NCBI GenBank assembly: GCA_017640785.1
Contig: JAEPPZ010000014.1
Coordinates: 1-47,873 of the forward strand
Length of the DNA: 47,873 bases
Direction: 5' to 3'
Source: Balneola sp.
GTDB taxonomy: Bacteria > Bacteroidota > Rhodothermia > Balneolales > Balneolaceae
In this document: positions 694 to 36,520 of the stretch, piece after piece
How positions within the stretch are numbered: the first letter of the stretch is position 1
How the letters are laid out: each line of letters opens with the position of its first letter
Position numbers and translations under genes: made by a program
The notes under the pieces: model-generated
Seen by the model: the letters and a program-made list of their open reading frames with translations, nothing else
What the model was told of the DNA's origin: nothing
Databases searched by the model: none

Positions 694-702
694 CGCGGTG
701 TT

Positions 703-765: not shown

Positions 766-773
766 GACTAGCA

Positions 774-1982: not shown

Positions 1983-1995
1983 GAAGCGTAAAGAC

Positions 1996-2040: not shown

Positions 2041-2106
2041 TAATTCAACATTTATAATTATTTCTTCAGGAAAGCGTCTTTTTTAATTTGGTTGTCAAAG
2101 GTTTCT

Positions 2107-3231: not shown

Positions 3232-3285
3232 AGTAGAACTTAAATATATCACCGATTTTAAGTTCAATATCATAAAATAAGTTCA

Positions 3286-3323
3286 ATAAAAAAAAGCTCA
3301 TAACTGTTAGGCTATGAGCTTTT
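3286..3323 (-). terminator. Rho-independent terminator of the etf-acyl-CoA dehydrogenase operon
   Basis: Read on the minus strand, AAAAGCTCATA, a 10-base loop, and TATGAGCTTTT form an 11-base-pair stem followed by further T residues (plus-strand A-run at 3285-3295). It begins about 20 bases after the stop codon of the acyl-CoA dehydrogenase, so it likely ends the operon that starts at etfB. Confidence 0.85.
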
Positions 3324-3342
3324 ATAAAAATGGTTTCAGAAA

Positions 3343-4515: not shown

Positions 4516-4623
4516 CTTTTTGAAAAGTCTTTAGTTATTGAAAAATCTTGTTGGAAACGCTTCCATAAAATAACGTTTTTGCGTACCAATTTCGTCTAAG
4601 AATGTGTAAAAAATTTATTATAT

Positions 4624-4710
4624 GGTGTGATAGTGCTAGGGTGTTATAGTGTTGCGATTGTACAAAAGTGAGTTCGCAACACTATAACACCATCACACCC
4701 TAATACTATA
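4624..4710. repeat. Long inverted repeat between fixX and the acyl-CoA dehydrogenase gene
   Basis: GGTGTTATAGTGTTGCGA at 4640-4657 pairs perfectly over 18 bases with 4674-4691 around a 16-base loop. Pairing continues imperfectly outward (GGTGTGATAG near 4624 with ATCACACCCTA near 4692). One arm is G/T-rich with a GTGTTATAGTG period. In the operon mRNA it would form a stable hairpin between fixX and the dehydrogenase and could act in processing or differential expression. There is no T-tract. Confidence 0.65.
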
Positions 4711-4714
4711 TTTT

Positions 4715-5017
4715 TTATCCAAAATTCCAGGTTACGCCACGGCCAATTTCAGGGTCAGGATAATTCCAATCCACAGCACCCTGATCGCAGGCATACATAC
4801 AAGTTCCACATTCGATGCAGTCTTCGACTTGAAAATGAACTTTCCCGGCTTCATCCATCGTGTAGCAATTAGCAGGACAAACCCATGTTGTACATTTATG
4901 AGGACAAGTTGAGTTGCAAATATCTGTATCAACAATGATATGAGGTTTGATCTCAGATTTAGCTTGATTTCGGTAACTGACAAGTCCGAGTCGTTCTGGA
5001 AGGCTTAGTAGTTTCAT
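4715..5017 (-). CDS. fixX: FixX-like ferredoxin, Fe-S subunit of ETF:quinone oxidoreductase
   Basis: This 100-residue protein matches the FixX family: the C-terminal ferredoxin domain of ETF:ubiquinone oxidoreductase as a separate polypeptide. It has CPANCYTMDEAG and then CIECGTCMYAC, which together supply the 4Fe-4S ligands, followed by the usual WNYP...GVTWNFG ending. An additional CNSTCPHKC stretch precedes the cluster motif. The likely partner is FixC, encoded just upstream. In most aerobic bacteria the two parts are fused in one polypeptide of roughly 550-600 residues, so the split form is notable. It acts at the membrane, relaying electrons from ETF through FixC towards menaquinone, or to ferredoxin-level acceptors if the complex bifurcates. 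Confidence 0.88.
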   Translation of the reverse strand: MKLLSLPERLGLVSYRNQAKSEIKPHIIVDTDICNSTCPHKCTTWVCPANCYTMDEAGKVHFQVEDCIECGTCMYACDQGAVDWNYPDPEIGRGVTWNFG

Positions 5018-5026
5018 GATTCGAAA

Positions 5027-5451
5027 GTGAAAAGTGAAAAAGGTAAAAGTGAAATGTAAACGAAAAAAAGTGTTGTCATTGCATCATTTTTGAAAGCATT
5101 GCAAATACTTGGTTTGAAAGATCCGAAAGATGATCGATATCTTTTTCATTTAGATAATTAAGCGTTAACGCTATTTCAATTTGTGTATCAACCTCAACAA
5201 GTGAGGAACGAGCTATTTGAAGAAATCTTTTGCGCTCAGCATTAGATGAACGTGCAGAACCTTCTGAAATATTAGAAGGTATAGAAACAGCCGCTCTTCT
5301 GAGTTGGCTTATTAATCCAAAATTTTTTGAAGATGGAAAAGTGTTAGTGAGCTTATAGATTTCACTAACCAATTCAATACTGGATTTATATACATTCAGT
5401 TTTTTATGGTTTAGCTTAATCATCTTTTCACCTCTCACTTTTACCTTTTCC
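5027..5451 (-). mobile_element. Candidate S23/IVP element bounded by inverted repeats, between fixC and fixX
   Basis: The four-helix-bundle gene at 5076-5423 is flanked by inverted repeats: 5036-5052 and the reverse complement of 5435-5451 agree at 16 of 17 positions (common core AAAAGGTAAAAGTGA). Both sides also carry GTGAAAAG copies. The whole insert fills the gap between fixC and fixX, which belong together. There is no transposase and I see no clear target duplication, so calling it an element is inference from position and symmetry, and from the second similar case at 25.1 kb. Confidence 0.4.
5076..5423 (-). CDS. Four-helix-bundle protein of the S23/IVP family
   Basis: From the ATG at 5423 this is 115 residues. 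That start is preferred over a GTG 15 bases upstream because the protein then begins MIKLNHKKLNVYKSS, the normal N-terminus, and GAGGTG stands just before it. Family marks are QLRRAAVSIPSNISEGSA (about 43-60), then FLQIARSSLVEVDTQIEIA and a C-terminal helix ending in a methionine-rich FAMLSKMMQ. Relatives form pentameric helical bundles. They were first found in intervening sequences of 23S rRNA genes, and Avd of diversity-generating retroelements is related. No reverse transcriptase or variable repeat is present here. The cellular role is unknown. It splits fixC from fixX and is framed by inverted repeats. Confidence 0.85.
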   Translation of the reverse strand: MIKLNHKKLNVYKSSIELVSEIYKLTNTFPSSKNFGLISQLRRAAVSIPSNISEGSARSSNAERKRFLQIARSSLVEVDTQIEIALTLNYLNEKDIDHLSDLSNQVFAMLSKMMQ

Positions 5452-5452
5452 C

Positions 5453-6778
5453 TTACAGAGATTTCCTCGCTTTAAATCCTAATTTTGCTAGTTCCCAGAG
5501 AGATGAATGTCTTTTGATGGCTCCAAGTAACATCTTCTCGGATTTTGGAGTTGGTTCATTTTTGATACTGAAGAATTGTCTTCCGAAATCACATACTAAG
5601 TTTGGTACTTTATTCTGCATCACATCAGTGTGTAATAAATGAACAGCATCCTGGAAACCTTTGATGTCTTTCATAACATAGCTGTCATCCATCTTTTTGC
5701 GATATTCTTTTAAGGTAGCAGAGGTATAATCGTTTTTAGCTTTTGCTTCTACAATTGTTTCTGCAGCCAGAATTCCTGATCGCATTGCGTAATCCATTCC
5801 CTGAATCGCTTTTCCGGCATTCATCAACAAATTCGCAGCTTCGCCAACCAGTAAAATTCCATCTTTATATAATTCTTTAGGCATCACTCTGGAATCACCG
5901 GATGAAACAACATGAGCAGAATATTCCACTACTTCACCACCTTTGATGGCGTCAGCAATGGTAGGATGTTGTTTGAAATGATTTAGAACATCATATGGCT
6001 TTTGCTTCTTTTCACGAAGGTCTTTTAATCCCAGAACCAATCCAAGAGAAATGGTGTCGCGGTTTGTATATAAGAATCCTCCGCCTTCGATACCGTTAGT
6101 AGCCCATCCTACAAATTCGTTACTCATTCCGCTTAATCCATTAAGCTGGAAGCGGTCTTCCAATACTTTTTGGTCGAAACGAATAATCTCTTTAATTCCT
6201 GTAAGCATATGATCAGCTGGAACATATTTATCTTGTAGTCCAACCTGACGAGTGAGCAGATTATTTACACCCTCAGCGATAATTACAGAATCAGCAAAAA
6301 ACTCATCTTCACCGGTTTTGATACCGATTGCTTTATCATTCTCCATGATCACTTCATCCACCTTAATATCCGTGGCAATGAATGAATCCATGGCAAAATC
6401 ACTGGCGTCAATAGCTTCCTGAACTTTTCCGGCTAACCAGTTATCAAACTTTGAACGAAGAACAACAACTCCTGTATAAGGCTTTTCGTTGAAGTGTGAA
6501 GATTTAAAATCCAAAGAAAATGATGACTGTTCATCCATGAACGTAAGACGGCGATGGTTTATAAATCTATCCCAACCTCCGTCTTCCTCTTCCCAATAAT
6601 TTGGAACGAGTTTATTCAGATCACTTCCCCAAAGAACTCCACCGGACACATTTTTTGATCCCGGAAATTCTCCTTTTTCGATGAGAAGGAACTTCATGTT
6701 ATTTCGGGCTAATGTCATTGCAGCGGCAAGGCCGGCAACTCCACCTCCGATTACGATACAGTCAAATTTGTCTTCCAT
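5453..6778 (-). CDS. fixC: FixC-like ETF:quinone oxidoreductase flavoprotein
   Basis: This 441-residue FAD protein begins with the dinucleotide-binding motif IVIGGGVAGLAAAM (about 9-22) and keeps the FixC/ETF-QO landmarks: VSGGVLWG, the FVGWATNGIEGGGFLYTNRD stretch, and LLVGEAANLLMNAGKAIQGM, where the second FAD-contact GEAA lies. It ends about where ETF-QO would continue into the ferredoxin domain, which here is FixX. It should take electrons from EtfAB and deliver them to the quinone pool at the inner face of the membrane. The start is the only ATG before the FAD motif. It lies between etfA and the S23/IVP insert. Confidence 0.88.
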   Translation of the reverse strand: MEDKFDCIVIGGGVAGLAAAMTLARNNMKFLLIEKGEFPGSKNVSGGVLWGSDLNKLVPNYWEEEDGGWDRFINHRRLTFMDEQSSFSLDFKSSHFNEKPYTGVVVLRSKFDNWLAGKVQEAIDASDFAMDSFIATDIKVDEVIMENDKAIGIKTGEDEFFADSVIIAEGVNNLLTRQVGLQDKYVPADHMLTGIKEIIRFDQKVLEDRFQLNGLSGMSNEFVGWATNGIEGGGFLYTNRDTISLGLVLGLKDLREKKQKPYDVLNHFKQHPTIADAIKGGEVVEYSAHVVSSGDSRVMPKELYKDGILLVGEAANLLMNAGKAIQGMDYAMRSGILAAETIVEAKAKNDYTSATLKEYRKKMDDSYVMKDIKGFQDAVHLLHTDVMQNKVPNLVCDFGRQFFSIKNEPTPKSEKMLLGAIKRHSSLWELAKLGFKARKSL

Positions 6779-6783
6779 TAAAA

Positions 6784-6871
6784 ATTAGTTTTGAGTGAAA
6801 AGTTTTGAGTGTTTAGTTGAAGTTAAATTGCAAAATAACTCTAAACTTAACACTTATAACTCAACACTAAT
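6784..6871. repeat. Imperfect palindrome between etfA and fixC
   Basis: ATTAGTTTTGAGT at 6784-6796 faces ACTCAACACTAAT at 6859-6871 (12 of 13 paired), with further inner pairing such as GTTTAG near 6811 and CTAAAC at 6841-6846. It fills essentially the whole gap and touches the etfA stop codon. It looks like the other gap palindromes of this operon. Confidence 0.5.
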
Positions 6872-7845
6872 TAGCTTTTAATTTTCTTTATTTCTTCGAT
6901 GAATGGTGGGAGCACTTTGTATAAGTCTCCAACAATTCCGTAATCCGCAACTTCAAAAATCGGTGCGTCCGGATCTTTATTGATCGCTACAATTACCTTA
7001 CTGTTTGCCATTCCAGCAACGTGTTGAATTGCTCCTGATATACCAACGGCAATATAAAGTTGAGGAGAAACTACTTTTCCTGTTTGACCAATTTGCAAAC
7101 TAGGATCGTACACTCCGGATTCAGTAAGTGCTCTTGAAGCACCAATTCCTGCTTTAAGTACAGAAGCCAATTCTGAGATCAATGCTTTCCCATCTTCGTC
7201 TTTAACCCCACGACCTGCTGCAACAATAGCTTCAGCTTCGTTCAAGTCAATGGTATCTCCCGAAGCAGAAATGATTTCGCGAAGAGTTGATTTCATTTCA
7301 GAATCATCCATGCTGAAGTCTATGTTTACAACTTCTGCAGATTCAGGGGATTCATTTAGATCGTAAGAACCGGAACGAACGGAAACCAAAACTTTATCAG
7401 ATTTAGCTTCGGTGTTGTTCATGATCTTAGCTGCCATTACAGGTCGTTTTGCTTTTACTCCGCCATCGATCAATTCGAAGGAAGCCACATCAGCAATAAC
7501 CGCAGCATTTTGGTTAGCAGCCAAAGCTCCCAAAATGTCTTTGGTGCCCTCTGTGGATGCAAAAGCAAAAACAGATGGGTTTACAGAATTCATCACATTT
7601 GCCAAAGCTTTAAGTAATGGTGTATTCATGTGGTTTTTAAAGATCGGGTCTTCCACAACATGGACTTTAGAAGCTCCGTATTTTTGAATGCCATCCACAA
7701 AAGAAGAAGCGTTTGCATCAATAACAACAGCTTCACATGAAGCGCCTGATGCATCAGCCAATGATTTACAATGTGATAATACTTCCAGAGAAGATCGCTT
7801 TAATTTTCCGTCTGAAATTGCGATGTAAGTTAAAATCGTGCTCAT
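6871..7845 (-). CDS. etfA: Electron transfer flavoprotein alpha subunit
   Basis: This FAD-binding subunit of ETF accepts electrons from acyl-CoA dehydrogenases. I set the start at the ATG ending at 7845 (324 residues, MSTILTYIAISDGKLK); a longer reading would add 29 residues encoded by the intergenic palindrome and is not credible. The C-terminal domain carries the classical FAD site: VAAGRGVKDEDGKAL, then GQTGKVVSPQLYIAVGISGA from about residue 253, and the closing INKDPDAPIFEVADYGIVGD. The N-terminal domain is the usual alpha/beta ETF fold with ASTEGTKDILG. It follows etfB after a 122-base gap containing a palindromic repeat. Confidence 0.93.
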   Translation of the reverse strand: MSTILTYIAISDGKLKRSSLEVLSHCKSLADASGASCEAVVIDANASSFVDGIQKYGASKVHVVEDPIFKNHMNTPLLKALANVMNSVNPSVFAFASTEGTKDILGALAANQNAAVIADVASFELIDGGVKAKRPVMAAKIMNNTEAKSDKVLVSVRSGSYDLNESPESAEVVNIDFSMDDSEMKSTLREIISASGDTIDLNEAEAIVAAGRGVKDEDGKALISELASVLKAGIGASRALTESGVYDPSLQIGQTGKVVSPQLYIAVGISGAIQHVAGMANSKVIVAINKDPDAPIFEVADYGIVGDLYKVLPPFIEEIKKIKS

Positions 7846-7860
7846 TTGTAATGTGTTATG

Positions 7861-7950
7861 TTTGTCATTTCGAACGAATGTGAGAAATCTAAAGATATAC
7901 TTAATAACTAATTTTAGATTTCTCAGGTGCAAGACCTTCGAAATGACAAA
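7861..7950. repeat. Double-stem palindromic repeat between etfB and etfA
   Basis: Two nested perfect stems are visible: TTTGTCATTTCGAA (7861-7874) with TTCGAAATGACAAA (7937-7950), and GAGAAATCTAAA (7882-7893) with TTTAGATTTCTC (7913-7924). This TCATTTCGAACGAATGTGAGAAATCT type of sequence is a widespread REP-like intergenic repeat in Bacteroidota genomes. Here it lies inside an operon and would fold in the etfB-etfA mRNA. Confidence 0.75.
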
Positions 7951-7967
7951 GGATTATAATTTCTTAT

Positions 7968-8738
7968 TTAAAGTACGTTTGCTTCAGTATCCAATAACTG
8001 GGCTACTTCGCGAGCTACTTCTTCAGCTTCGCCTTCATATTTCTTTCCGGCCTGACGTGCAGGTTTTTCTTCATATGAAGTTACTTTAGTATGAGCTTGT
8101 AACTCAGCTTCATCAATTCCCAAAGATGAAATCTCAACCTGATCGATCGGCTTTCTCTTGGAAGCCATGATTCCTTTCAGATTTGGAATTCTTGGATCGT
8201 TCATATCATTTGAACAAGTAACTGCACATGGAGTTGGAAGCTCGATCATTTCCTGACCGCTATCTCCCTGACGTTTAACAACAAGATTTCCGTTCTCTAC
8301 CTCAAGGCCAACTGCATTCGTAGTGTATGGAAGACTTAAATGTTCAGCAACCATACTTCCGGTCAATCCTGAATCCGTATCCTGAGATTGCTTACCTAGT
8401 CCGATCACATCGTATTCTTTATCCTTGAAGAAAGCAGAAAGTATTTTAGCGTAACTGGCTGAATCGTAATCTTCATCGCCGGTAGCAAGAATGTGAGTTG
8501 CTTTATCAGCTCCCATTGCCAGAGCTTTTCGAATAGTTTCTGAAGCTTTTGCAGGGCCGATACAAACAACTTCAACTTCTCCACCGTGCTTTTCTTTTAA
8601 AACTAAAGCTTCCTCAACCGCAGATGCATCGTAGGCATTTAAAACCATTCGGTCTGCATCCATGATTAGCTCGCCTTCTTTGATCTGAAGTGGTGCGTAA
8701 ACATCGGGCACCATCTTAATACATATATAAAATTTCAT
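7968..8738 (-). CDS. etfB: Electron transfer flavoprotein beta subunit
   Basis: At 256 residues this matches EtfB/FixA. It has the opening MKFYICIKMVPDVYAPLQI, the MVLNAYDASAVEEAL segment, the recognition-loop region around VVCIGPAKASETIRKALAMGADKA, and YDVIGLGKQSQDTDSGLTGSM, which in the family binds AMP or, in bifurcating types, a second FAD. With FixC and FixX downstream the arrangement matches fixABCX. Which nucleotide is bound cannot be decided by eye. It is the first gene of the minus-strand operon. The 80-base upstream gap (8739-8818) should hold the promoter; a minus-strand TATATTGT resembles the -7 box only weakly. Confidence 0.92.
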   Translation of the reverse strand: MKFYICIKMVPDVYAPLQIKEGELIMDADRMVLNAYDASAVEEALVLKEKHGGEVEVVCIGPAKASETIRKALAMGADKATHILATGDEDYDSASYAKILSAFFKDKEYDVIGLGKQSQDTDSGLTGSMVAEHLSLPYTTNAVGLEVENGNLVVKRQGDSGQEMIELPTPCAVTCSNDMNDPRIPNLKGIMASKRKPIDQVEISSLGIDEAELQAHTKVTSYEEKPARQAGKKYEGEAEEVAREVAQLLDTEANVL

Positions 8739-8818
8739 TCTTATGGTTTTGCAATTCGTAGTTATTAATGTAACCGCTTTTTTGGGTCGACAATATACAA
8801 AACCAAAAGAAAAGTATT

Positions 8819-9718
8819 TTAATTCTGTAGGTTAGAATACTCTGTTAAATGTCCCTGATCTGTTTCCAAAAGAATACTGTATGCCTGACGTCTTACCGCT
8901 GCTTCAGCTTCTCCGAAAATACCGGATATTTCTCTGGCTTTGGTGTCAAAGAAAAGGTCGAACAGATAGTTGCTTGTTGCACGACGTTTAGAGTCTCTTA
9001 TTAGTGTGAGCGCATCCAGAATTTCTTGTCTTGCCAGCTTAGGATCATCTGAAAATTGATCCAATCCAAGTCGATGATAAGAATAATAAGCAGTACGGAG
9101 TGGTTCGTATGAGGCGTTCAACAGATCTGTAACGAGTGTAAATTTATTTCTTCGATTATTTGCGGCTCTTGTCCAGCCGGGTGATGCAGTGGTTTGTGCA
9201 AGATCAACTACTTGTTGAGCTTTTCTGAAATATTCAGTTCCGCCAAGTTTTGAAAAGCTATCAAAATCGTATCCCAGAATAATATTGATGAAGAAATCCA
9301 GGGTTCCTGTAAGATTATCGAATTGAAGTTCATCATGTATTAAAGTTCTTCCTTCCGGATAATTAAATCGCCACAGTTCGTCTGAAAGAATAATGGAAGT
9401 TGTTTCTGTGACGGTATTATAAATAGGTCGGCGAGCTGTGAATATAACTCTGGCTCCGAAATCAAAATTGGAATTACCACTTTCGATGATCAATTGTATT
9501 TGACACTGAATTCTTTCGTGTTCTTCAAATTGAGCTTCTGTCCAGTTGTAATCATTGATATACTCTTCAATACGACTTTCAAGTTCAGTCAGGTAGGAAT
9601 AAGAGTTTCCTTCCAACAAATCATAATTTAAGTTTACCTCACATTCGAATTCTTGCGAAAAAGTAGAGCTTGTTACAAAGCAGAATAATATTAAAAAGTA
9701 AAATCTTGGTTTAATCAC
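8819..9718 (-). CDS. porD: DUF4835 family protein (type IX secretion component PorD)
   Basis: This 299-residue exported protein has a Sec signal peptide (MIKPRFYFLILFCFVTSSTF, cleavage near residue 21) followed by the DUF4835 layout: FECEVNLNYDLLEGN, a strand-rich first half with ARRPIYNT and DELQFDNLTGTLDFFINIIL, then LGYDFDSFSKLGGTEYFRKAQQ and a helical C-terminal half with YYSYHRLGLDQFSDDPK. NCBI naming links this family to type IX secretion; its exact job is unclear. The start codon is GTG (9716-9718), with AAGGAAAA about nine bases before it. It is transcribed away from the barrel genes, from a 46-base divergent gap. Confidence 0.82.
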   Translation of the reverse strand: MIKPRFYFLILFCFVTSSTFSQEFECEVNLNYDLLEGNSYSYLTELESRIEEYINDYNWTEAQFEEHERIQCQIQLIIESGNSNFDFGARVIFTARRPIYNTVTETTSIILSDELWRFNYPEGRTLIHDELQFDNLTGTLDFFINIILGYDFDSFSKLGGTEYFRKAQQVVDLAQTTASPGWTRAANNRRNKFTLVTDLLNASYEPLRTAYYSYHRLGLDQFSDDPKLARQEILDALTLIRDSKRRATSNYLFDLFFDTKAREISGIFGEAEAAVRRQAYSILLETDQGHLTEYSNLQN

Positions 9719-26705: not shown

Positions 26706-27752
26706 ATGAGAATAGTGGTAACAGGAGGAGCAGGCTTTATTGGATCTGCGTTGGTTCGGTTGATTCTAAACCACACTGAACATCTGGTTCTAAACATTGA
26801 CAAGCTTACTTATGCCGGTCATTTGGAATCACTTATAAACGTTAGTAATTCAAACCGATACCAATTTGAACAAGCCGATATTTGTGATGCGGATGAAATA
26901 AATAGAAATTTCAATGAATTTCAGCCGGATGCCATCATACATTTAGCTGCTGAATCACACGTTGATCGTTCCATAGATGGCTCAGCTGAGTTTATAAAAA
27001 CGAATGTAAACGGCACTCATGTGTTACTTGAAGAGACCAGAAAATATTGGAATGCTTTGAAAGGTGATTTGAAAAAAAATTTTCGTTTCCTTCATGTTTC
27101 AACGGATGAGGTATATGGGTCTCTCGGAAAAGAAGGTTTTTTCACAGAAGAAACCTCGTATGATCCCCGATCTCCCTACTCTTCAAGTAAAGCTGCTTCT
27201 GATCATTTGGTAAGAGCTTGGCATCATACCTATGGGCTACCAACAATGATCACAAACTGCTCAAATAATTACGGACCCTATCAGTTTCCAGAAAAATTAA
27301 TTCCTGTGGTGATTTTAAAAGCTCTACAGGGAAAAGAAATTCCTGTATATGGAAAAGGAGACAATGTTAGAGATTGGCTATATGTGGATGATCATGCACT
27401 TGCATTACTTAAAGTAGTGAAAGAGGGAGTTCCTGGTGAGACTTATAACATCGGTGGGCATAACGAAAAGCAGAATATAGAAGTCGTACACACTATCTGT
27501 GATACGCTTGACGAATTAGTTGCAAAAGATTTAAAATATAGGGATCAAATTTCATTAGTAACGGACCGCCCGGGGCACGATTTTAGGTATGCTATTGATG
27601 CTTCAAAAATTGAAAAAGAACTTGGTTGGATCCCAAAAGAAACCTTTGAAAGTGGAATAAAGAAAACCATACAATGGTATCTTGATAACATTGATTGGTG
27701 CGAAAGAGTCACTGTAAATAACTATGATCTCAAAAGGCTAGGAACCACTTAA
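26706..27752 (+). CDS. rfbB: dTDP-glucose 4,6-dehydratase
   Basis: This 348-residue SDR enzyme converts dTDP-glucose to dTDP-4-keto-6-deoxyglucose. The Rossmann motif GGAGFIGS is at 7-14, the active-site STDEVYGS at 132-139 (Thr133, Asp134, Glu135) and Tyr158/Lys162 lie in [26 protein letters not shown] is diagnostic for RfbB. It is the second step of the dTDP-L-rhamnose route and is followed by rfbA and rfbC. The C-terminus (about 30 residues beyond [12 protein letters not shown]) is a little longer than in many homologues. Confidence 0.95.
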
Positions 27753-27790
27753 AGAGTGGAATTTAAGAAAACATCAATTAAAATTTCAAA

Positions 27791-28654
27791 ATGAAAGGAA
27801 TTATATTAGCAGGTGGAGCTGGTACACGTCTCCATCCGAATACATTGGTAGTCAGTAAACAACTATTACCAGTATATGACAAACCCATGATTTACTATCC
27901 TTTGTCAACATTAATGTTATCAGGTATAAAAGATATTTTAGTTATTTCTACTCCTGAAGACCTTCCGCGTTTTGAAGATTTATTAGGCAATGGATCTAAA
28001 TGGGGTATTAAATTGAGCTATGCTGTGCAGGAAAATCCTGAAGGATTAGCTCAAGCATTTATTATTGGAGCTGATTTTATAGGTCAAGATAAAGTTGCAT
28101 TAATTCTAGGGGATAATATTTTTTATGGGCAAGGGCTTTCAAAGAAGCTACAAGGAGCGGCAGAATTGGAAGCTGGAGCTACTGTCTTTGGTTATGAAGT
28201 GCGTGATCCGAAACGTTATGGGGTCGTTGAATTTGATAAGGCAGGAAATGCATTAAGTCTAGAAGAAAAACCAGCACTGCCAAAATCAAATTATGCAGTC
28301 GTTGGCTTATACTATTATGATAACAAGGTTATAGAAAGGGCAAAAAATTTAAAGCCTTCTATCCGAGGTGAACTTGAAATAACAGATTTAAATAGAATCT
28401 ATCTTGAACACAATGAGCTTACTGTTGAACTAATGGGAAGAGGAACGGCTTGGTTAGATACAGGAACTCATGATTCAATGCTGCAAGCTTCCAATTTTGT
28501 ACAAACGGTAGAGCAAAGACAAGGGCTCAAAATTGCAAGTCCTGAAGAGGTTGCTTGGCGAATGAAATATATAGACGAGCACCAACTCGAAGTACTTGCC
28601 CAACCTCTCATTAAGAGTGGATATGGAAAATATTTAATGTCACTTATCAATTAA
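27791..28654 (+). CDS. rfbA: Glucose-1-phosphate thymidylyltransferase
   Basis: This 287-residue nucleotidyltransferase makes dTDP-glucose from dTTP and glucose-1-phosphate. The opening [19 protein letters not shown] carries the nucleotide-binding GGAGTR (8-13). [18 protein letters not shown] and [17 protein letters not shown] follow, and [20 protein letters not shown] is the RfbA/RmlA ending. Length and motifs are standard, including residues of the allosteric dTDP-rhamnose-sensing tail. It lies between rfbB and rfbC with only three bases before rfbC. Confidence 0.96.
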
Positions 28655-28657
28655 TAA

Positions 28658-29203
28658 ATGGAAGTTATAAAAACCAAAATTAAAGGATTACTTATTTTAG
28701 AACCACAGGTATTTGAAGATAATAGAGGCTATTTTTTTGAAAGTTTTAATAAGAGAAAATTAGAAAATATTATAGGCCATCCCATTAATTTTGTTCAGGA
28801 TAATCAATCTAAATCTGAATATGGAGTACTTCGTGGAATTCACTTTCAAAAAGGAGAACATGCACAGGCTAAACTGGTCCGGGTGTTAAGTGGTAAGGTG
28901 TTGGACATAGCTGTGGACTTACGTCCCGATTCTGAAACTTATGGTCAGTATGAAAGCATAGAATTATCGGCAGAAAACAAGCTGCAATTCTTCATTCCCC
29001 GAGGTTTTGGTCATGGATTCGCGGTACTCAGTGAAACCGCTGAATTCTTTTATAAATGTGATAATTATTATAACAAAGACTCGGAGGGAGGAATTATCTA
29101 TAATGACCCCAATCTTAATATCGATTGGAAAGTAGTGAAAGAAGATTTGAAGGTTTCTGATAAAGATAAAGAATTAAAACACTTGATTAAAAAATTAGCC
29201 TAA
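28658..29203 (+). CDS. rfbC: dTDP-4-dehydrorhamnose 3,5-epimerase
   Basis: This 181-residue cupin epimerase has the RmlC marks DNRGYFFESFNKRKLE (21-36), QDNQSKSEYGVLRGIHFQ with the catalytic His62, and KVLDIAVDLRPDSETYGQ. It yields dTDP-4-keto-L-rhamnose. The reductase RfbD that would finish dTDP-L-rhamnose is not found in this window. Either it is encoded elsewhere or a different sugar is made. The gene ends two bases before the aldolase gene that opens the AT-rich cassette. Confidence 0.94.
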   Translation: MEVIKTKIKGLLILEPQVFEDNRGYFFESFNKRKLENIIGHPINFVQDNQSKSEYGVLRGIHFQKGEHAQAKLVRVLSGKVLDIAVDLRPDSETYGQYESIELSAENKLQFFIPRGFGHGFAVLSETAEFFYKCDNYYNKDSEGGIIYNDPNLNIDWKVVKEDLKVSDKDKELKHLIKKLA

Positions 29204-29205
29204 AT

Positions 29206-30756
29206 ATGAAAATATTAGATTGTACACTTAGAGACGGCGGATACTATACAAATTGGGATTTTGATGAAGAATTGGTAAAAATTTATGCTGAATCAATAGA
29301 AAATCTACCAATTGATTATATTGAAGTAGGGTATCGGAGTATTAAATTAGAAGGTTATTTAGGAAAGTATTTCTATTGTCCATTATATGTCTTAAAACAA
29401 TTAAAGGAATGGATGCCATCCAAGAAATTGGTGATTATCCTAAATGAGAAGGACATCAAAGCCTCTGATGTTAAGGAATTATTAGAACCATGTATACCAT
29501 ATATAAATATGGTACGAATTGCTGTTGACCCACAAAATATGGAAAGAGCAATCGGGTTAGCTAAAGAGGTGAAAAAACTAGATTTTGAAGTGGCTTTCAA
29601 TGTGATGTATATGTCTAGTTGGACTCAAGATAGTTCATTTATAGATTTATTAATTGGAATGGAGGATACATTAGACTACTTCTATATGGTTGATTCGTTT
29701 GGAGGTGTTTTGCCAGATGAGGTGATAAACCTCATAAAAATTATAAAATCGAAAATAGACATCCCTCTAGGTTTTCATGGACATAACAACCTAGAAATGG
29801 CATTATCAAATACACTTACAGCTATTGAACATAATATTGATATTGTTGACGCTACAATAACAGGAATGGGTAGAGGCGCTGGTAATTTAAAAATGGAATT
29901 GTTGTTAACTGTACTTCAATCACAAAACAAAATTGAACTTGATTATAATCCATTGGGTCATGTGACAGCAGTTTTTAACAAATTAAAAGAACAATATGAT
30001 TGGGGTACAAATTTACCCTATATGGTATCTGGTGCTAATTCATTGCCACAGAAAAATGTAATGGAATGGGTGAGTAATAGATTTTATTCTTTTAATAGCA
30101 TAATTAGAGCTTTAGAGAATCAATCTCATGGACTTAAAGATAATATTCAACTTCAAGTTTTAAATTTTGATAAAGAGAAACAATATCAAGCCGCTCTTAT
30201 CATCGGCGGTGGGCCAAATGCTGTAAATCATTATAGTGCCTTAAAGGTATTCCTAGAAAATAATACAGATGTTGTTGTAATTCATGCAAGCTCAAAAAAT
30301 GCTTTGAGTTATTCGAATATTAGTAATGACCAGTACTTTTGCCTAGTTGGAAACGAAGGGCATCGTTTGGAAAAAGTTTTTAGTTTTGAAAATGAAATAA
30401 AAGGTAAGTGTGTTTTGCCACCATACCCTAGAAAAATGGGTACATACATACCAAATAAGATGAAAGATAATACCTATGAATTAGAGGAAATAGATTTTAC
30501 TAATAAATACAAAGACTCACATACAGCATTAGCATTACAAACTGCTATATCTCTAAATGTGAGTAAAATATACATTGCAGGCTATGATGGATATCCAGCT
30601 AGCTTGATGGGGCAAAAAGAACAAGAACTTTTTAAGGAAAACGAATACTTATTTATAAAAGTGAAAGATTGTATTAAGCATATTGAACTAATAAGTTTAA
30701 CCCCAACCAGATATGATCAATTGTATCCATTGTCTGTATATAGTTCTATTAGTTAA
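29206..30756 (+). CDS. DRE-TIM aldolase (HMGL/4-hydroxy-2-oxovalerate aldolase-like) fused to an MptE/DUF115-like domain
   Basis: This is a 516-residue two-domain protein. The N-terminal part (about 1-300) is a DRE-TIM metallolyase: LDCTLRDGGYY (4-14) supplies the arginine/aspartate pair, HGHNN (His191, His193) the metal ligands, and DATITGMGRGAGN a further family motif. Such enzymes join or split carbon-carbon bonds next to an enolised pyruvate or acyl-CoA. The C-terminal part (about 310-516) has LIIGGGPNAVNHYSALKVF and IAGYDGYP, reminiscent of the MptE/DUF115 fold that also occurs in Maf-type nonulosonate transferases of flagella. Its substrate is unknown. It begins the presumed keto-sugar-acid cassette and is markedly AT-rich. 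Confidence 0.75.
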   Translation: MKILDCTLRDGGYYTNWDFDEELVKIYAESIENLPIDYIEVGYRSIKLEGYLGKYFYCPLYVLKQLKEWMPSKKLVIILNEKDIKASDVKELLEPCIPYINMVRIAVDPQNMERAIGLAKEVKKLDFEVAFNVMYMSSWTQDSSFIDLLIGMEDTLDYFYMVDSFGGVLPDEVINLIKIIKSKIDIPLGFHGHNNLEMALSNTLTAIEHNIDIVDATITGMGRGAGNLKMELLLTVLQSQNKIELDYNPLGHVTAVFNKLKEQYDWGTNLPYMVSGANSLPQKNVMEWVSNRFYSFNSIIRALENQSHGLKDNIQLQVLNFDKEKQYQAALIIGGGPNAVNHYSALKVFLENNTDVVVIHASSKNALSYSNISNDQYFCLVGNEGHRLEKVFSFENEIKGKCVLPPYPRKMGTYIPNKMKDNTYELEEIDFTNKYKDSHTALALQTAISLNVSKIYIAGYDGYPASLMGQKEQELFKENEYLFIKVKDCIKHIELISLTPTRYDQLYPLSVYSSIS

Positions 30757-30758
30757 TT

Positions 30759-31475
30759 ATGATTGGCATATTTTCTAAAACTACAGATAGTAATTTTATA
30801 GAAGCGGCAGGATTGTCTGGGCTTGATTTTATTATTATTGATCAAGAGCATGGGCACGTTGGAAAAGATCGCTTACATGATCATTTAAGAGCAGCAAAAG
30901 AGGCAGGTGTAAAGGCTATCGTTAGGGTAAAAGAGTTAAATCACAACGATATAGGGTCTGCTCTTGATGCTGGAGCTGATGGTGTGCAAGTGCCCAATAT
31001 ATCAACTGTTAAAGAAGCTAAATTAGCGATTAATGCTGCAAGGTTTTATCCACTAGGTGAAAGGGGTGTTTGTAGATTTGTAAAGGCAGCAGCGTTTGGA
31101 AGTCTTGATAAGCAAGAATATTTTGAGACTTCCAATGAAAAGCTTCTGATTCTGCAAGTTGAAGGGACATTAGGTATTAGTAATATCGATAAAATACTTG
31201 ATCTCGAAGGCTATGATATTTTATTTGTTGGGCCGTATGATTTATCACAATCTCTTGGGATCCCTGGTAAAATACAAGATAAGAGAATTTTAGATACCAT
31301 TGATCAACTCATTGAAAAAGCAAAATCTAAGAACAAGAAATTCGGCGTATTTTGCGATGATATTAGTTATGCGAGAAGACTAAAACAGACTGGGGTAGAT
31401 TATCTTGCTTACTCTGTTGATTTAAATATATTTCTAAACGCATGTACTAATTTAATTAATGAAATTAAAAAATAG
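30759..31475 (+). CDS. HpcH/HpaI-type class II pyruvate aldolase
   Basis: This 238-residue TIM-barrel aldolase has the full active-site set: IIDQEHGHVG (Glu30, His31), VRVKE (Arg56), LQVEGTLG (metal ligand Glu135) and FVGPYDLSQSLGIPG (Asp161). Enzymes of this family reversibly add pyruvate to aldehydes to give 4-hydroxy-2-keto acids, mainly in aromatic breakdown. Here it is two bases after the DRE-TIM protein and six bases before an epimerase in a polysaccharide locus, so a biosynthetic job, making a 2-keto-3-deoxy sugar acid, is my inference. It is slightly shorter than catabolic HpaI (about 250-265). Confidence 0.82.
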   Translation: MIGIFSKTTDSNFIEAAGLSGLDFIIIDQEHGHVGKDRLHDHLRAAKEAGVKAIVRVKELNHNDIGSALDAGADGVQVPNISTVKEAKLAINAARFYPLGERGVCRFVKAAAFGSLDKQEYFETSNEKLLILQVEGTLGISNIDKILDLEGYDILFVGPYDLSQSLGIPGKIQDKRILDTIDQLIEKAKSKNKKFGVFCDDISYARRLKQTGVDYLAYSVDLNIFLNACTNLINEIKK

Positions 31476-31480
31476 TAAGC

Positions 31481-32368
31481 ATGAAAATACTAGTAACTGG
31501 TGGTAGCGGGTTTATAGGATCAAAACTTATTCAAGCTCTGTTAAAAAAAGGGCATGAAGTAATTTCTTTGGATAAAAAAGATAAAGTAATTGATGTACCA
31601 CATATTAAGAAAGATATCAGCGATGAAGATCTTGTAGATATTGATATTTCAGATATTGATATAATTTACCATACAGCAGCTCAATCTGGTGGATACTATT
31701 CTTTGATTCATCCATTCGTTGATGGAATGTGGAACTGTATTGGAACACTTAATGTAGTTAAGCTTGCTCAAAAATTAAATGTTAAGAAGTTTATATATAC
31801 TAGTAGCATGGCGGTCTATGGAAACCAAGAAGACGCAAAAGAGGATGTCATCCCGACTCCAATTTCATTCTATGGTACTAGTAAATTAACAGGTGAATAC
31901 TATACCAAAATTTTACAAGAGCATAGCAATATTTCATTTACAATTTTTAGGCTTTTTGCTACTTACGGAGCCGGCCAAGATTTAGATAACAAACATCAGG
32001 GTATTCTGAGTATTTATTTAGAACAGGCGTTAAAAGGTGATACCATAACGATTACTGGAGCTGAAGATCGTATCAGACAATTAGTACACGTATCAGATGT
32101 TGTAAATGCGTTGTTAATGCCTTTATCCAGCACAGATCAAGACAATGAAACATATAATGTTTTATATGATGATAATTTGAGTCCGCGAATAATTATTGAT
32201 GCTATTAGTCATCATTTAGGGAAAAAATTAACAATCAAAGTTATTGATGGATATGTTGGCGACCAAGTTCTAATTACAGGAAGTAATGATAAACTAAGAA
32301 ATACTGGATGGAATCCTAAAATCGATCTCAATGAAGGGATTAAAGAATTTGTTAGTGCTTTAAAATAA
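31481..32368 (+). CDS. NAD-dependent epimerase/dehydratase (extended SDR)
   Basis: This 295-residue extended SDR enzyme has the NAD motif GGSGFIGSKLI (7-17), TSSMAVYG (107-114) and the catalytic pair Tyr131/Lys135 in FYGTSKLTGEYY. It also has RIRQLVHVSDV, the usual substrate-domain block. It could epimerise, reduce or dehydrate a nucleotide-linked or free sugar; the exact step cannot be read. Being inside the aldolase-cytidylyltransferase group it may tailor the keto-acid precursor, or act as the missing 4-ketoreductase of the dTDP branch. After it comes an 85-base gap, the largest within the cassette. Confidence 0.82.
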   Translation: MKILVTGGSGFIGSKLIQALLKKGHEVISLDKKDKVIDVPHIKKDISDEDLVDIDISDIDIIYHTAAQSGGYYSLIHPFVDGMWNCIGTLNVVKLAQKLNVKKFIYTSSMAVYGNQEDAKEDVIPTPISFYGTSKLTGEYYTKILQEHSNISFTIFRLFATYGAGQDLDNKHQGILSIYLEQALKGDTITITGAEDRIRQLVHVSDVVNALLMPLSSTDQDNETYNVLYDDNLSPRIIIDAISHHLGKKLTIKVIDGYVGDQVLITGSNDKLRNTGWNPKIDLNEGIKEFVSALK

Positions 32369-32453
32369 ATTAAGTGGTTAGTTATTATTTCGTTTAAACC
32401 CATAAAAAAGATAACTCAATTCAAAATAGTTGATCGAAATTAAATAGGAAAAA

Positions 32454-33110
32454 ATGAAAAAAATTGTAGCAGTAATTCCTGTTAGAAAAGGTTCACAACG
32501 TGTAAAAGACAAAAACTTTAAACCATTTGCAGGAAAATCTTTACTTGAACACAAGCTAGAAACAGTAAAGAAATTACCAATTGATGAAATTATAATTAAC
32601 ACTGATAGTGATGAAGCTATTGAAATGGCAAAAAAAGAAGGAGTTTCCTATCATAAAAGAGAGCCATATTATGCAAGCTCTGTTTGCACCAATAGTGAAT
32701 ATCATGAATATTTAGCCAAAGTAACCTTAGCAGAAAATATTATCATAGCTCAAGTTACTGAACCTATGATATCTTTAGAAACTTTTGAAGATGCTATTGA
32801 TAATTATTACCTCAATGATTGTAATAGTCTTATGTCTGTTAAAGTAGTAAAAGAATTTTTATGGCATGAAAATAAGCCTATAAACTATTCACTAGATAAT
32901 GCACCAAACTCTCAAAATCTTCCAGAATATTTTGCGCCTACATTTGGCTTGGTAATTGTGAATAGGGACGCCATGCTTGAATCGAAAAATTTTATTTGTT
33001 CAAACCCTTATTTTTATGAGTTAAATGAATATGAAGCAGTTGATATTGACACAGACCTCGATTTTGAATTTGCAGAGTTTCTTTTCAAAAAGTATCGTTT
33101 AAAAAATTAA
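32454..33110 (+). CDS. CMP-sugar synthetase of the acylneuraminate cytidylyltransferase family
   Basis: This 218-residue nucleotidyltransferase has the CMP-NeuAc/CMP-Kdo synthetase opening VAVIPVRKGSQRVKDKNFKP (5-24), where the arginine, serine and lysine bind CTP, and the closing VDIDTDLDFEFAE with the metal-binding aspartates. It should couple CTP to a keto-sugar acid, releasing pyrophosphate. It is nearer to NeuA-type than to KdsB-type proteins by this ending. No NeuB, NeuC or KdsA homologue is in the window; two aldolases occupy that place instead. It begins 85 bases after the epimerase and is eight bases before a HAD phosphatase gene. Confidence 0.85.
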   Translation: MKKIVAVIPVRKGSQRVKDKNFKPFAGKSLLEHKLETVKKLPIDEIIINTDSDEAIEMAKKEGVSYHKREPYYASSVCTNSEYHEYLAKVTLAENIIIAQVTEPMISLETFEDAIDNYYLNDCNSLMSVKVVKEFLWHENKPINYSLDNAPNSQNLPEYFAPTFGLVIVNRDAMLESKNFICSNPYFYELNEYEAVDIDTDLDFEFAEFLFKKYRLKN

Positions 33111-33117
33111 ACTAAGT

Positions 33118-33744
33118 ATGAACAAATTGAAGACAATTCTATGGGATTTTGATGGGGTTATAATAGACTCAAACAGTATACGAGACTTAGGATTCCGTAG
33201 TATTTTAAAAGCATTTGATAAAGAAAAAGTTGAAGAGCTTATAAAATATCATCAGTATAACGGAGGTTTATCGCGATATATTAAAATTCGATATTTTTAT
33301 AATGAAATTATGAATATTGAAATCTCAGATACTGAAGTTAAGAAGTTAGCCGAGGAATTCTCTGTGATAATGAAAAAAAAATTGACCGACAAAACAGTAT
33401 TGATCAATGATTCAGTCAATTTTATAAAGAAAAATTATAATAATTATAATTTTCACATAGTTTCAGGTTCAGATCAAGCTGAATTACGTTTTTTATGTAA
33501 AAAATTAGGATTATCAGAATACTTTAAAAGTATTCATGGTTCTCCAACACCAAAAAATGAATTGGTTTTAAACCTTTTAAATAACAGTGGGTATTCAGAA
33601 TCAACGGTCTGTCTCATTGGTGATTCAATTAATGATTATGAAGCTGCACAACTAAATGGTATAAAATTTTTTGGTTATAATAATAAATCATTAGAGAGTA
33701 AATCTAGTTCATACATAAAATCTTTTGACGCATTTTTTGTCTAG
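33118..33744 (+). CDS. HAD-family phosphatase
   Basis: This 208-residue HAD subfamily IA hydrolase has motif I WDFDGVIID (nucleophile Asp10 and Asp12), motif II HIVSGSDQ, a lysine at PKNELV and motif IV GDSINDYEAA. A helical cap (about 20-100) lies between motif I and motif II. Family members remove phosphate from sugar phosphates. Next to a CMP-sugar synthetase this recalls the dephosphorylation step before activation (as KdsC in Kdo synthesis or NeuNAc-9-P phosphatase in eukaryotes), which would mean that the aldol product is phosphorylated. Substrate unproven. Confidence 0.82.
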   Translation: MNKLKTILWDFDGVIIDSNSIRDLGFRSILKAFDKEKVEELIKYHQYNGGLSRYIKIRYFYNEIMNIEISDTEVKKLAEEFSVIMKKKLTDKTVLINDSVNFIKKNYNNYNFHIVSGSDQAELRFLCKKLGLSEYFKSIHGSPTPKNELVLNLLNNSGYSESTVCLIGDSINDYEAAQLNGIKFFGYNNKSLESKSSSYIKSFDAFFV

Positions 33745-33753
33745 TTCAAAATT

Positions 33754-35034
33754 ATGAAAACTGATAATAGAGAGTTTAAAAGATATAAATCGATAAAAGA
33801 AAAATTATCGTTTATAATTGATGATATAGAGTTTAATCAAATCTTAGCAATAGATATAGCTCTTATAAGTTTTAAAAAAACTGTTGATTTTAAAATTGGT
33901 TTTAAAGATTACCTGAAATTTGCTTTTAAGAGTAGATCTTTTAAAAAAACAAAATTAGATTTTGAAAGCAATAAACTCTTGGTTTCGGCAGAAATCGAAA
34001 GAAATGACTTTAATTCTCTTATTGAATCGGTTATATCGGGAATAAGCGATAAAATATTTTCCCCAATTTATAATCTTAAAGTAAAAAGATATTTCAATTC
34101 CAAAAATTTAATTATTTCATTTCGCCATCTATTTATTGGGAATAAAATTAAGAATCTAAACTTCTTTGAAAAATTATATTTAGCAAGTCGATTGTGTTTT
34201 TACCTAAATTCTTTTGATTCATTAATTTCTGAATTTAAAGATTTCAATTTTACAAATAAAAAATATTTGAGTTTTAACAGTTCTTTTGGGTTTGAAGCAA
34301 TGTTGACTCAGTTCTTTAAGGCTAATGAGGTGCCAACTTATACATTGCAACATGGCCCATATTATGTTAAGTACAAAATTAAAGTGCCTCTGGATAATAT
34401 AAATGGAGAAAATATAACGGCAGATAATGTATTCGTTTGGGGGAGAAGTAGCTTAAATGATCTTTTAAATAATTACAATTTACAATCCAGTAGGATAATT
34501 ATTGGAGGAAACCCTAAGTACATTGCAAAAAAGATTAAAGTAAAATTAGGGTTCAAAAAATGTCTAGTATTACTTGGTCGTGTTATGTACGAATCTGGGA
34601 ATAAAAAAATTCTACAAATTGTGAAAGAAGTTGCAGATACTACTGGAATAAAATTTGAAGTCAAATTGCATCCATCTTTGGATAATGTGAAATATAAAAA
34701 ATTATGTGAGAGCTATGATCTTACTTTAGTTCAAACTACAGAACATTTGGCGCAAATTCTTTCTCGTGATATATACGATTTTGCTATTGTGAACAATAGT
34801 ACAGCTTATTATGAATCTATGTACTATAATTTATTATGTTTTAGATTTGAACCAGATGAGAATGAACAATTTTTAGGTTTAGATGATAAATTTAACGATA
34901 GTAAAAGTTTATTGAATAAAATTTCTTCATTTGAAGAACAGGATTCAGAAAAATTGAATAAAAACATTGAGAAACTACTAACTGATACACTAGGAATGGG
35001 TATTAATTATTATAAAAAATATTTAGATGGGTAG
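33754..35034 (+). CDS. Probable GT-B glycosyltransferase with HG and HP motifs (CMP-sugar type?)
   Basis: I do not recognise this 426-residue protein by overall sequence. It lacks signal peptide and membrane helices. Its second half carries TLQHGPYYVKY (His200), NVFVWGRSSLNDLL, GGNPKY, LHP (His306, Pro307) and NNSTAYYESMYY, an order seen in GT-B transferases of the capsule/CDP-glycerol/polysialyltransferase type, where the HP dipeptide contacts CMP. Coming directly after a CMP-sugar synthetase, it is the best candidate to transfer the CMP-activated residue. The sequence is lysine- and asparagine-rich and very AT-rich. Its end overlaps the flippase start by eight bases. Confidence 0.55.
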   Translation: MKTDNREFKRYKSIKEKLSFIIDDIEFNQILAIDIALISFKKTVDFKIGFKDYLKFAFKSRSFKKTKLDFESNKLLVSAEIERNDFNSLIESVISGISDKIFSPIYNLKVKRYFNSKNLIISFRHLFIGNKIKNLNFFEKLYLASRLCFYLNSFDSLISEFKDFNFTNKKYLSFNSSFGFEAMLTQFFKANEVPTYTLQHGPYYVKYKIKVPLDNINGENITADNVFVWGRSSLNDLLNNYNLQSSRIIIGGNPKYIAKKIKVKLGFKKCLVLLGRVMYESGNKKILQIVKEVADTTGIKFEVKLHPSLDNVKYKKLCESYDLTLVQTTEHLAQILSRDIYDFAIVNNSTAYYESMYYNLLCFRFEPDENEQFLGLDDKFNDSKSLLNKISSFEEQDSEKLNKNIEKLLTDTLGMGINYYKKYLDG

Positions 35035-36520
35035 GGACAAGACTGATGCAAGAAAAGGACTCATCTGGAGTACCTTCGGTAAAGTTCTTAACGCTGGGTT
35101 AAAATTCCTTTCAGTACCACTTTTATTAAATCATTTCGGGGAAGAAAAATATGGTCTGATCGCTTTAGCTTTATCCATAGATATTTATCTAAAGATAATG
35201 GACTTGGGATTTAATACAGGTAATGTCCGCTTTATATCTCACTGGCTTGCAAAAGGAAAGGCGAACTCTATTGTAAAACTAGTAGAGGCAAGTCAATTAT
35301 TTTATGGAATAGTTGGTCTTATAAATTTTTCGATACTGGTGGTTTTGGCATTTTTTAGTGGGCAAATATTTAATCTTGATCCCGAGTCAAGTGAAATTCT
35401 ACAAAAATTAATCCTTATAATATCAGTAACTGCGCTATTCTCATGGTTTTTTGCAACCACTTCTCACATTCTCAATGCATATAAAAGGATTGATTTTAAT
35501 GAAAAATTAAGTATGGTCACTAATATCTTAATTTTTGCCGGTGTGTTGATAACAATTGGTTTAAATTTATCTATCGCTCAATATTTTTTGGTTTACTCAC
35601 TTAGTATAATTGTACCCATTCCTTTAAGAATTTTGAAAATAAAGACTTTAAATGATTCAATATCATTTATTCCAAGGTGGAATAAGGAGATATTTTTAGA
35701 AGTGTTTTCATACTCAATTGGTATTTTTTCAATGGGTTTTTTCCAGATGTCAGCTCAAAATCTGCGTCCTATTATTCTTGGGATTCAGGCACCGATTACC
35801 GCAGTTACTGAGTTTAAAATTATCGAACAAGTTGCGGCAATAATTATAATGTTAACAAGCTCTTTTTTATCAGTCTTATTGCCATTTGCTACTAAATATA
35901 AATCAGAAGGAAATGTTGAAGCTCAGAGAAAAATTGCTTTTGATGTTACAAGGTATTTATCGGTATTTATAGTTCTATTGGTATTTGGGTTGATATCCAT
36001 ATCATCCCCTCTGATTGAAGTCTATGTTGGTAAAAAATATGTACATTTAAGTTTTTGGTTGAATATATGGGCTTTAACCTTATTAGGTAGTCATAACGCT
36101 GCTTTATCTTCTTTAATACTTGCTGGATCAAATATTAAAAAAATATCTTATTTTACTGCAATATCTTCAACACTATCAATATTGATAGCTTGGTTTTTAG
36201 CTCCAATTTATAGTGTTGGTGGTGTTGTAATTGCATTTTCAGTATATATTTTATTTCAAATGATTTTCTACTATATCTATTATATACCTAATATAATGAA
36301 CTTTAATTCAGGTAAAATATTTGTGAACTCATTTCTTTATCCAGTAATAATTGGGACAGGAGCTTACTTTATATCTTTAGTTATAAGTAATATTTTGGGT
36401 TTTCAGAATCCATATTTATTGATCATGTTTAATGGAACACTATTTGTCGCATTGTATACTTCTATGACTCTCTGTACGACACTTAAATTAAAAGAAATTA
36501 AATATTTGTTAGTTGATTAA
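35027..36520 (+). CDS. wzx: Oligosaccharide-lipid flippase (Wzx)
   Basis: This 497-residue polytopic protein, with about 12-14 predicted helices, belongs to the MOP/polysaccharide transport family. The N-terminal GLIWSTFGKVLNAGLKFLSV and the following LNHFGEEKYGLIALALSIDIY are the usual Wzx opening. It should flip the lipid-linked repeat unit across the inner membrane. With Wzy and Wzc in the same locus this indicates the Wzx/Wzy-dependent route rather than an ABC exporter. It overlaps the preceding gene by eight bases. Confidence 0.9.
   Translation: MGRDKTDARKGLIWSTFGKVLNAGLKFLSVPLLLNHFGEEKYGLIALALSIDIYLKIMDLGFNTGNVRFISHWLAKGKANSIVKLVEASQLFYGIVGLINFSILVVLAFFSGQIFNLDPESSEILQKLILIISVTALFSWFFATTSHILNAYKRIDFNEKLSMVTNILIFAGVLITIGLNLSIAQYFLVYSLSIIVPIPLRILKIKTLNDSISFIPRWNKEIFLEVFSYSIGIFSMGFFQMSAQNLRPIILGIQAPITAVTEFKIIEQVAAIIIMLTSSFLSVLLPFATKYKSEGNVEAQRKIAFDVTRYLSVFIVLLVFGLISISSPLIEVYVGKKYVHLSFWLNIWALTLLGSHNAALSSLILAGSNIKKISYFTAISSTLSILIAWFLAPIYSVGGVVIAFSVYILFQMIFYYIYYIPNIMNFNSGKIFVNSFLYPVIIGTGAYFISLVISNILGFQNPYLLIMFNGTLFVALYTSMTLCTTLKLKEIKYLLVD

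Follow-up and report, generated by a model that had tools for sequence, protein, structure and literature searches.

How can a bacterium make a sugar acid for activation with cytidine monophosphate (CMP), if its genome contains neither of the condensing enzymes by which such acids are usually recognised? The question is raised by a run of six genes in a stretch of 47,873 nucleotides from Balneola sp. (contig JAEPPZ010000014.1 of assembly GCA_017640785.1), which as a whole we call the window. The first gene encodes a protein that we name A1, an aldolase-type metallolyase with a putative MptE-like tail. It is followed by genes for an HpaI-type aldolase (A2), an SDR protein, a cytidylyltransferase, a HAD phosphatase and a protein with HG and HP motifs (Table 1). 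CMP-activated ulosonic acids such as 3-deoxy-manno-octulosonate (Kdo) and the sialic, legionaminic and pseudaminic acids are central to bacterial surfaces, and their prediction from genomes rests largely on KdsA or NeuB. Both the Kdo pathway (KdsA-KdsC-KdsB) and the sialic acid or Kdn pathway (NeuB-phosphatase-NeuA) consist of a condensation, a HAD-type phosphatase, a cytidylyltransferase of the CTP_transf_3 family and a CMP-sugar transferase. The genes around A1 offer the same set of steps, except that a DRE-TIM metallo-aldolase, expected to use pyruvate, stands in place of the phosphoenolpyruvate (PEP)-dependent KdsA or NeuB. Our reading, to which we give a probability of roughly two in three, is that A1 works together with the cytidylyltransferase and the HAD phosphatase, and that the three make and CMP-activate a 3-deoxy-2-ulosonic acid, destined for a surface polysaccharide, without the use of PEP. 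In the open-access literature, as far as titles and abstract openings tell and with subscription papers and preprints little covered, we found no description of such a pathway.

In the host genome (3.39 Mb, 99.72% complete), a search with PF03102 found no NeuB, and one with PF00793 found neither KdsA nor a type I DAHP synthase; the same searches were positive in 9 and 11 of 14 control genomes, respectively. The first-pass annotation had pointed out that both synthases are missing from the gene run, and had named a linked gene elsewhere in the genome as the case that would speak against its proposal. Such a gene was looked for in the host and was not seen. Furthermore, PF00793 is matched in none of 38 genomes of the order, the host included, and NeuB was not found in G043 and G045, two relatives from the same order that carry A1. 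In the host alone, profile searches found no Kdo transferase WaaA and no arabinose-5-phosphate isomerase (KdsD) over the cut-off, the latter with four weak matches. Taking the 38 genomes without PF00793 together with the host without WaaA, we note that this order may be without the canonical synthesis of Kdo.

Searching species genomes with a profile of A1, we obtained 170 relatives and kept the best 80 (77 from Bacteroidota, two from Balneolota, one from Verrucomicrobiota). With the window and three further loci (L021-L023) they make a set of 84 loci, selected for A1 alone. In this set L023 and L028 are probably one contig counted twice, as they agree in length (42,803) and in gene map, and L021 and L022 come from a single genome that has two copies. 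Because the scans of genomes and viruses rely on short conserved peptides, they favour close relatives. The A1 proteins form 70 clusters at 85% identity. Using profiles built from the loci and counting only proteins of 180-260 residues, we find that 83 of the 84 loci have a cytidylyltransferase at most three genes after A1, with 68 hits on the very next gene. The pair is always on the same strand (83/83), with a median gap of 3 bp and a gap within 50 bp in 63 of the 83 cases; the sole locus without a downstream cytidylyltransferase, L046, ends at A1. Among the genes outside positions +1 to +4, 12 out of 1130 are such cytidylyltransferases, and about 2.7 loci with the pair would be expected by chance, which rules out a chance neighbourhood. 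A HAD protein is found within five genes downstream of A1 in 74 of the 84 loci; HpaI occurs in 13 loci and a member of the HG/HP family in 12. The conserved unit is the A1 aldolase, the cytidylyltransferase and the HAD phosphatase; HpaI and the SDR protein are optional. The first-pass annotation had read all six genes as one pathway, with two aldolases in the place of the synthase. What stands of this proposal is a pyruvate-type aldolase linked to CMP activation without NeuB or KdsA, and the conserved co-occurrence of A1 with the cytidylyltransferase, the lack of which would, by the same annotation, have counted against it. On the other hand, the pair of aldolases is a minority variant, and the six-gene cassette as a unit is ruled out, since both HpaI and the HG/HP family occur in a minority of the loci. 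As a separate observation, five Dysgonomonas loci (L090, L093, L094, L105 and L106) keep A1 and the cytidylyltransferase and have no gene matching the HAD profile within five genes downstream.

The cytidylyltransferases next to A1 form two sequence clusters, and our labels refer to these clusters: 51 of the 83 partners, that of the window included, are NeuA/PseF-like and 32 are KdsB-like. A QGDE-type motif is present in 27 of 82 partners. All of the 82 partners scanned match CTP_transf_3, 78 match the PseF model and up to 52 match KdsB models. On the A1 tree, the type of partner changes 15 times, and at least six of these changes are forced by strong branches. Judging from the sequences, A1 keeps a cytidylyltransferase of either kind through partner replacement, and a link that survives such replacement argues for function over inheritance as a block.

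The two kinds of partner bear on the nature of the product. It is a serious alternative, though clearly short of an even chance, that the same enzymes make an acid that is already catalogued, such as Kdo or Kdn, and that A1 is only a non-homologous replacement of KdsA or NeuB; this would be compatible with the proposed route and would oppose only the idea of a new residue. In view of the KdsB-like partners, a new route to Kdo itself or to one of its relatives is a real possibility. Nine chosen KdsB-like proteins (six from A1 loci, two viral fusions and one from Leisingera) all pass the cut-offs of the NCBIfam subfamily models PRK13368.1 and PRK05450.1-5, which are titled 3-deoxy-manno-octulosonate cytidylyltransferase, and none of the nine reaches either of the two kdsB equivalog cut-offs. 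However, the enzyme of the window is near neither family: it scores 31.6 bits against the NCBIfam kdsB cut-off of 155.2 and 68.8 bits against the PseF cut-off of 205.7, PseF being the closest model and still far away. A known acid also sits poorly with a host without WaaA and without an arabinose-5-phosphate isomerase over the cut-off, and an aldolase that pairs with two kinds of partner would point to more than one sugar. The same low scores, far under every NCBIfam cut-off touched, would fit a cytidylyltransferase whose substrate is not a 2-ulosonic acid but, for example, another hydroxy acid built by A1. We consider this very doubtful, as the closest families, PseF and KdsB, are activators of ulosonic acids, and genes resembling polysialyltransferases and GT29 sialyltransferases are found downstream in other loci (see below).

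A direct connection between the aldolase and CMP activation is seen in viruses. In 29 of 33 viral loci, all 29 within L109-L138, an A1-type aldolase and a KdsB-type cytidylyltransferase form a single open reading frame (ORF) of 552-589 residues, one of them cut by the end of the locus. The HxH metal motif and the motif QGDEP are present in all 29 fusions and LRDGGYY in 27, and the fusions amount to 14 distinct proteins at 90% identity and six at 60%. The fused cytidylyltransferase domains of L126 and L109, the two that were scanned, are those that pass the subfamily cut-offs for CMP-Kdo synthetases given above. In L108, L111 and L139 the cytidylyltransferase gene adjoins the aldolase gene instead of being fused to it, and in L140 none is in view. 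Around the fusion of L126 (positions 7998-9695) there are glycosyltransferases, a nucleotide-sugar dehydrogenase-like protein, an epimerase, a 2-oxoglutarate oxygenase and an unfused protein that is similar, below the cut-off, to MptE-like proteins. Four of the viral fusions were scanned against PHROG, and no match was found for them. The three-gene unit, unfused, is found on a Leisingera plasmid, where an aldolase about 27% identical to A1 over 99% of its length, a KdsB-type gene and a HAD gene follow in a row.

What kind of aldolase is A1? We searched solved structures with its predicted model (pLDDT 93.6), and the closest chain is PDB 3dxi (Z 44.9). This is the N-terminal domain of BVU_2661 from Bacteroides vulgatus, 54% identical to A1 over 294 residues and of the same family; the deposit is titled only "putative aldolase", and in the open-access literature within our reach no paper was found under either identifier. 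Next in the list are the 4-hydroxy-2-oxovalerate aldolases 1nvm (Z 32.2), 8ih7 (31.6) and 4jn6 (31.5), ahead of the homocitrate and isopropylmalate synthases at Z 24-26, for example the homocitrate synthase 2ztj (26.2). Among enzymes of known function, the predicted fold of A1 is closest to the 4-hydroxy-2-oxovalerate aldolases. Like these it has a DRE-TIM barrel, an RDG motif and an HxH metal site, and the residues R9, D10, H191 and H193 are invariant in 69 aligned A1 proteins of the 84. It differs from them in its polysaccharide context, in a sequence identity of 16-20%, in a tyrosine discussed below, and in its company: the 4-hydroxy-2-oxovalerate aldolases partner an aldehyde dehydrogenase, whereas the A1 type is fused to an MptE-like or a KdsB-type domain instead.

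The MptE-like nature of the tail, which the first-pass annotation had stated, is borne out, if weakly. Scans of 40 of the 84 A1 tails gave matches to PF01973 with E ≤ 0.1 in 26 cases (best 1.6e-6), but the matches are weak: the tail of the window protein alone has E 0.011 and 16 bits, below the gathering score of 34.6, and a Pfam scan of the full-length protein gave no MptE-like match. A profile of the tail gave a single non-significant match to solved structures (E 0.55). The structure search with the whole of A1 was filled by TIM barrels and barely probed the fold of the tail; in the viral list, two MptE-like models stand at ranks 17 and 28, with the aligned part of A1 not specified.

From these data we propose the following order of events. 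The genes, their conservation, the fusions, the lack of NeuB and KdsA in the host and the predicted fold are observations; the pyruvate donor, a phosphorylated acceptor, the sequence of reactions, the structures of all products, the role of the tail and the choice of transferase are inferred. A1 would hold pyruvate at a divalent metal bound by D10, H191 and H193, form the enolate and catalyse its addition to an aldose, free or phosphorylated, which would yield a 4-hydroxy-2-oxo sugar acid. The phosphate would then be taken off by the HAD enzyme, and the cytidylyltransferase would join the acid to CMP, using cytidine triphosphate. A possible task of the MptE-like tail is to bind the product, or a nucleotide, and to aid channelling. 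Finally, a CMP-sugar-dependent transferase would add the sugar to the repeat unit. In the window this might be the HG/HP protein, which has the motifs that had been assigned to it, QHG at 199-201 and HP at 306-307, with H306-P307 invariant in 12 sequences of its family. It matches no Pfam family over the cut-off and no glycosyltransferase family; its predicted fold is GT-B, with the UDP-GlcNAc 2-epimerase 7vyy as the best match (Z 16.7, root-mean-square deviation 5.1, 299 residues aligned). In other loci the transferase may be of the GT29 or the polysialyltransferase type: of the 142 genes just downstream of the HAD gene, 82 were scanned, and 8 of these match the polysialyltransferase family PF07388 and 8 the GT29 sialyltransferase family PF00777, the overlap between the two not being given.

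There are several observations that speak against this reading. Firstly, residue Y13 of A1, invariant in the 69 sequences, aligns with H21 of 1nvm, which we take to be the catalytic histidine of the 4-hydroxy-2-oxovalerate aldolases, located after RDG; because an invariant tyrosine replaces this histidine, the chemistry of A1 may differ. A1 also stays under the NCBIfam cut-offs for these aldolases, with 89.6 bits against 286 for the equivalog and 100.4 against 229 for the subfamily model. Secondly, a HAD protein is absent from ten of the 84 loci, and a contig end explains only L046 and L066. Thirdly, of nine plasmid hits three were examined, and those on Mesorhizobium and Priestia plasmids are aldolase relatives without the tail and without a cytidylyltransferase listed nearby, in a gene table that is incomplete; such tail-less relatives may serve other roles. 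Fourthly, the best structural matches of the HG/HP model are enzymes of UDP-sugars, and the majority of the scanned downstream genes fall outside the families of CMP-sugar transferases. Finally, NeuB is common in genomes with A1. Whole genomes were searched for 50 of the 80 kept loci, and a NeuB match was found in 39 of them, over the cut-off in 38; the Balneolota genome of L107 carries A1 and two NeuB. At the level of genomes, the only clean cases of independence from NeuB are the host, G043, G045 and the 12 of the 50 genomes that have none over the cut-off.

The tyrosine and the frequency of NeuB would suit a view in which A1 is not a condensing enzyme at all and the acid comes from another synthase; A1 would then modify the ulosonic acid, supply an aldehyde by retro-aldol cleavage or be a structural relic. 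Linked NeuB, defined as a match inside the fetched flanks (≤10 kb) with E < 1e-20 and more than 200 residues, is found in 18 of the 84 loci. These loci have on average 1.83 cytidylyltransferase genes, compared to 0.98 in the others (13 of the 18 have two and one has three), from which it follows that NeuB mostly brings its own cytidylyltransferase and that one belongs to A1. This second gene, the invariant metal site, the direct fusion of the aldolase to the cytidylyltransferase and the absence of NeuB and PF00793 from the host, G043 and G045 all oppose a non-condensing A1, and we think it unlikely.

We now turn to the second aldolase of the window. A2 belongs to the HpaI/GarL class II aldolases by its Pfam match and its intact set of residues: D28, E30, H31, R56, E135 and D161 are invariant in 14 aligned sequences, and we take all of them except E30 to be the catalytic and metal residues of HpaI. 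It differs from HpaI and GarL in its scores, which do not reach the NCBIfam equivalog cut-offs (for HpaI, 140.5 bits compared to 368.8), and in lying inside a polysaccharide cassette. Where HpaI is present, it is the gene next to A1 (position +1) in 12 of the 13 loci. The partners in all of these 12 loci are NeuA/PseF-like (by clusters, 10/10 compared to 33/60, Fisher p = 0.005), but when relatedness is taken into account by a test on independent tree pairs, the association loses its significance (p = 0.25-0.5). We have therefore set aside A2 as a marker of a separate sugar, and it stays a hint. In the window, A2 and the SDR protein probably give a variant of the sugar, perhaps by way of another acceptor or by modification.

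With its intact residues, A2 could also be the committed aldolase of the window and A1 have some other role. In favour of this, the one CTP_transf_3 gene over the cut-off that the host has apart from that of the window, on contig C6, adjoins a different HpaI together with an SDR, a NagB-like sugar-phosphate isomerase and a HAD gene, and has no A1 beside it. However, A2 is found in just 13 of the 84 A1 loci and in none of the 29 viral fusions, while the cytidylyltransferase stays within three genes of A1 in 83 of 84, and we regard a committed A2 as quite unlikely. Turning to contig C6 itself (G000:C6, L141, positions 15-9048), the cassette there, a second one for polysaccharide in this host, comprises the cytidylyltransferase, HpaI, the SDR protein, the NagB-like isomerase, the HAD protein, a 2-hydroxyacid dehydrogenase and a STELLO-like glycosyltransferase, and there is no A1 match on the whole 12.3-kb contig. 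It is possibly a cassette for another aldolase-based CMP-sugar acid. Since the C6 gene also adjoins an HpaI-type aldolase, both host cytidylyltransferases over the cut-off pair with pyruvate-type aldolases. In a relative (G012, L004/L024), a tail-less A1-like protein of 337 residues is located beside a weak match to the HpaI profile (E 1e-8), so that the two types of aldolase are paired again.

What would the proposed route mean? A sialic-acid-like coat sugar of many environmental bacteria, and of some viruses, appears to be made by means of an aldolase, probably one that uses pyruvate, and not by a PEP-dependent enzyme. We tentatively suggest, at clearly less than even odds, that A1 represents, beside KdsA and NeuB, a third class of condensing enzyme for CMP-ulosonates, a DRE-TIM "ulosonate synthase" that depends on pyruvate and occurs in Bacteroidota, Balneolota, Alphaproteobacteria and viruses, in the last of which it would share one polypeptide with CMP activation, and that the two-aldolase version of the window leads to an uncatalogued sugar acid. 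If A1 is such a third way in, predictions based on KdsA and NeuB overlook a group of polysaccharides common among Bacteroidota, and the host, without NeuB and KdsA by profile search, would still make such a sugar. The single-chain viral fusion would then be a ready tool for the production of CMP-sugars from pyruvate.

Table 1. Genes of the A1 cluster and its neighbours, with positions in the window
Feature	Position	Strand	Basis	Proposed role or context
A1: DRE-TIM metallolyase of the 4-hydroxy-2-oxovalerate aldolase type (residues ~1-311) with a putative MptE-like (DUF115) domain (~325-516)	29206..30756	+	Pfam HMGL-like 9.5e-22, fold, residues	Proposed condensing enzyme
A2: HpaI-type class II pyruvate aldolase	30759..31475	+	Pfam HpcH_HpaI 1.3e-28, residues	Optional partner
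SDR (extended, GalE/Epimerase-like)	31481..32368	+	Pfam Epimerase 2.6e-47	Optional modifying enzyme
Cytidylyltransferase, nearest to the PseF/NeuA type	32454..33110	+	Pfam CTP_transf_3 6.2e-16	Proposed CMP-sugar synthetase
HAD phosphatase	33118..33744	+	Pfam HAD_2 2.3e-17	Proposed ulosonate-phosphate phosphatase
HG/HP-motif GT-B protein	33754..35034	+	Motifs, predicted fold	Candidate CMP-sugar-dependent transferase
Wzx-like flippase	35027..36520	+	Profile search	Surface polysaccharide cluster
dTDP-rhamnose genes	26706..29203	+	RmlC by profile; presumably RmlB-like and RmlA-like, from reading the translations	Directly upstream of A1

The positions of the six ORFs agree with what had been read from the sequence at first, as do the Pfam families of the first five. 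The six genes are co-directional and spaced by 2 to 85 bases. Scores are well above the Pfam cut-offs for the cytidylyltransferase (59.3 bits, cut-off 22.6), the HAD protein (64.1 bits, cut-off 23.8) and A2 (100.2 bits, cut-off 25). RmlC lies directly before the run, and the Wzx-like flippase and glycosyltransferases come after it; this part of the window is therefore a surface polysaccharide cluster.

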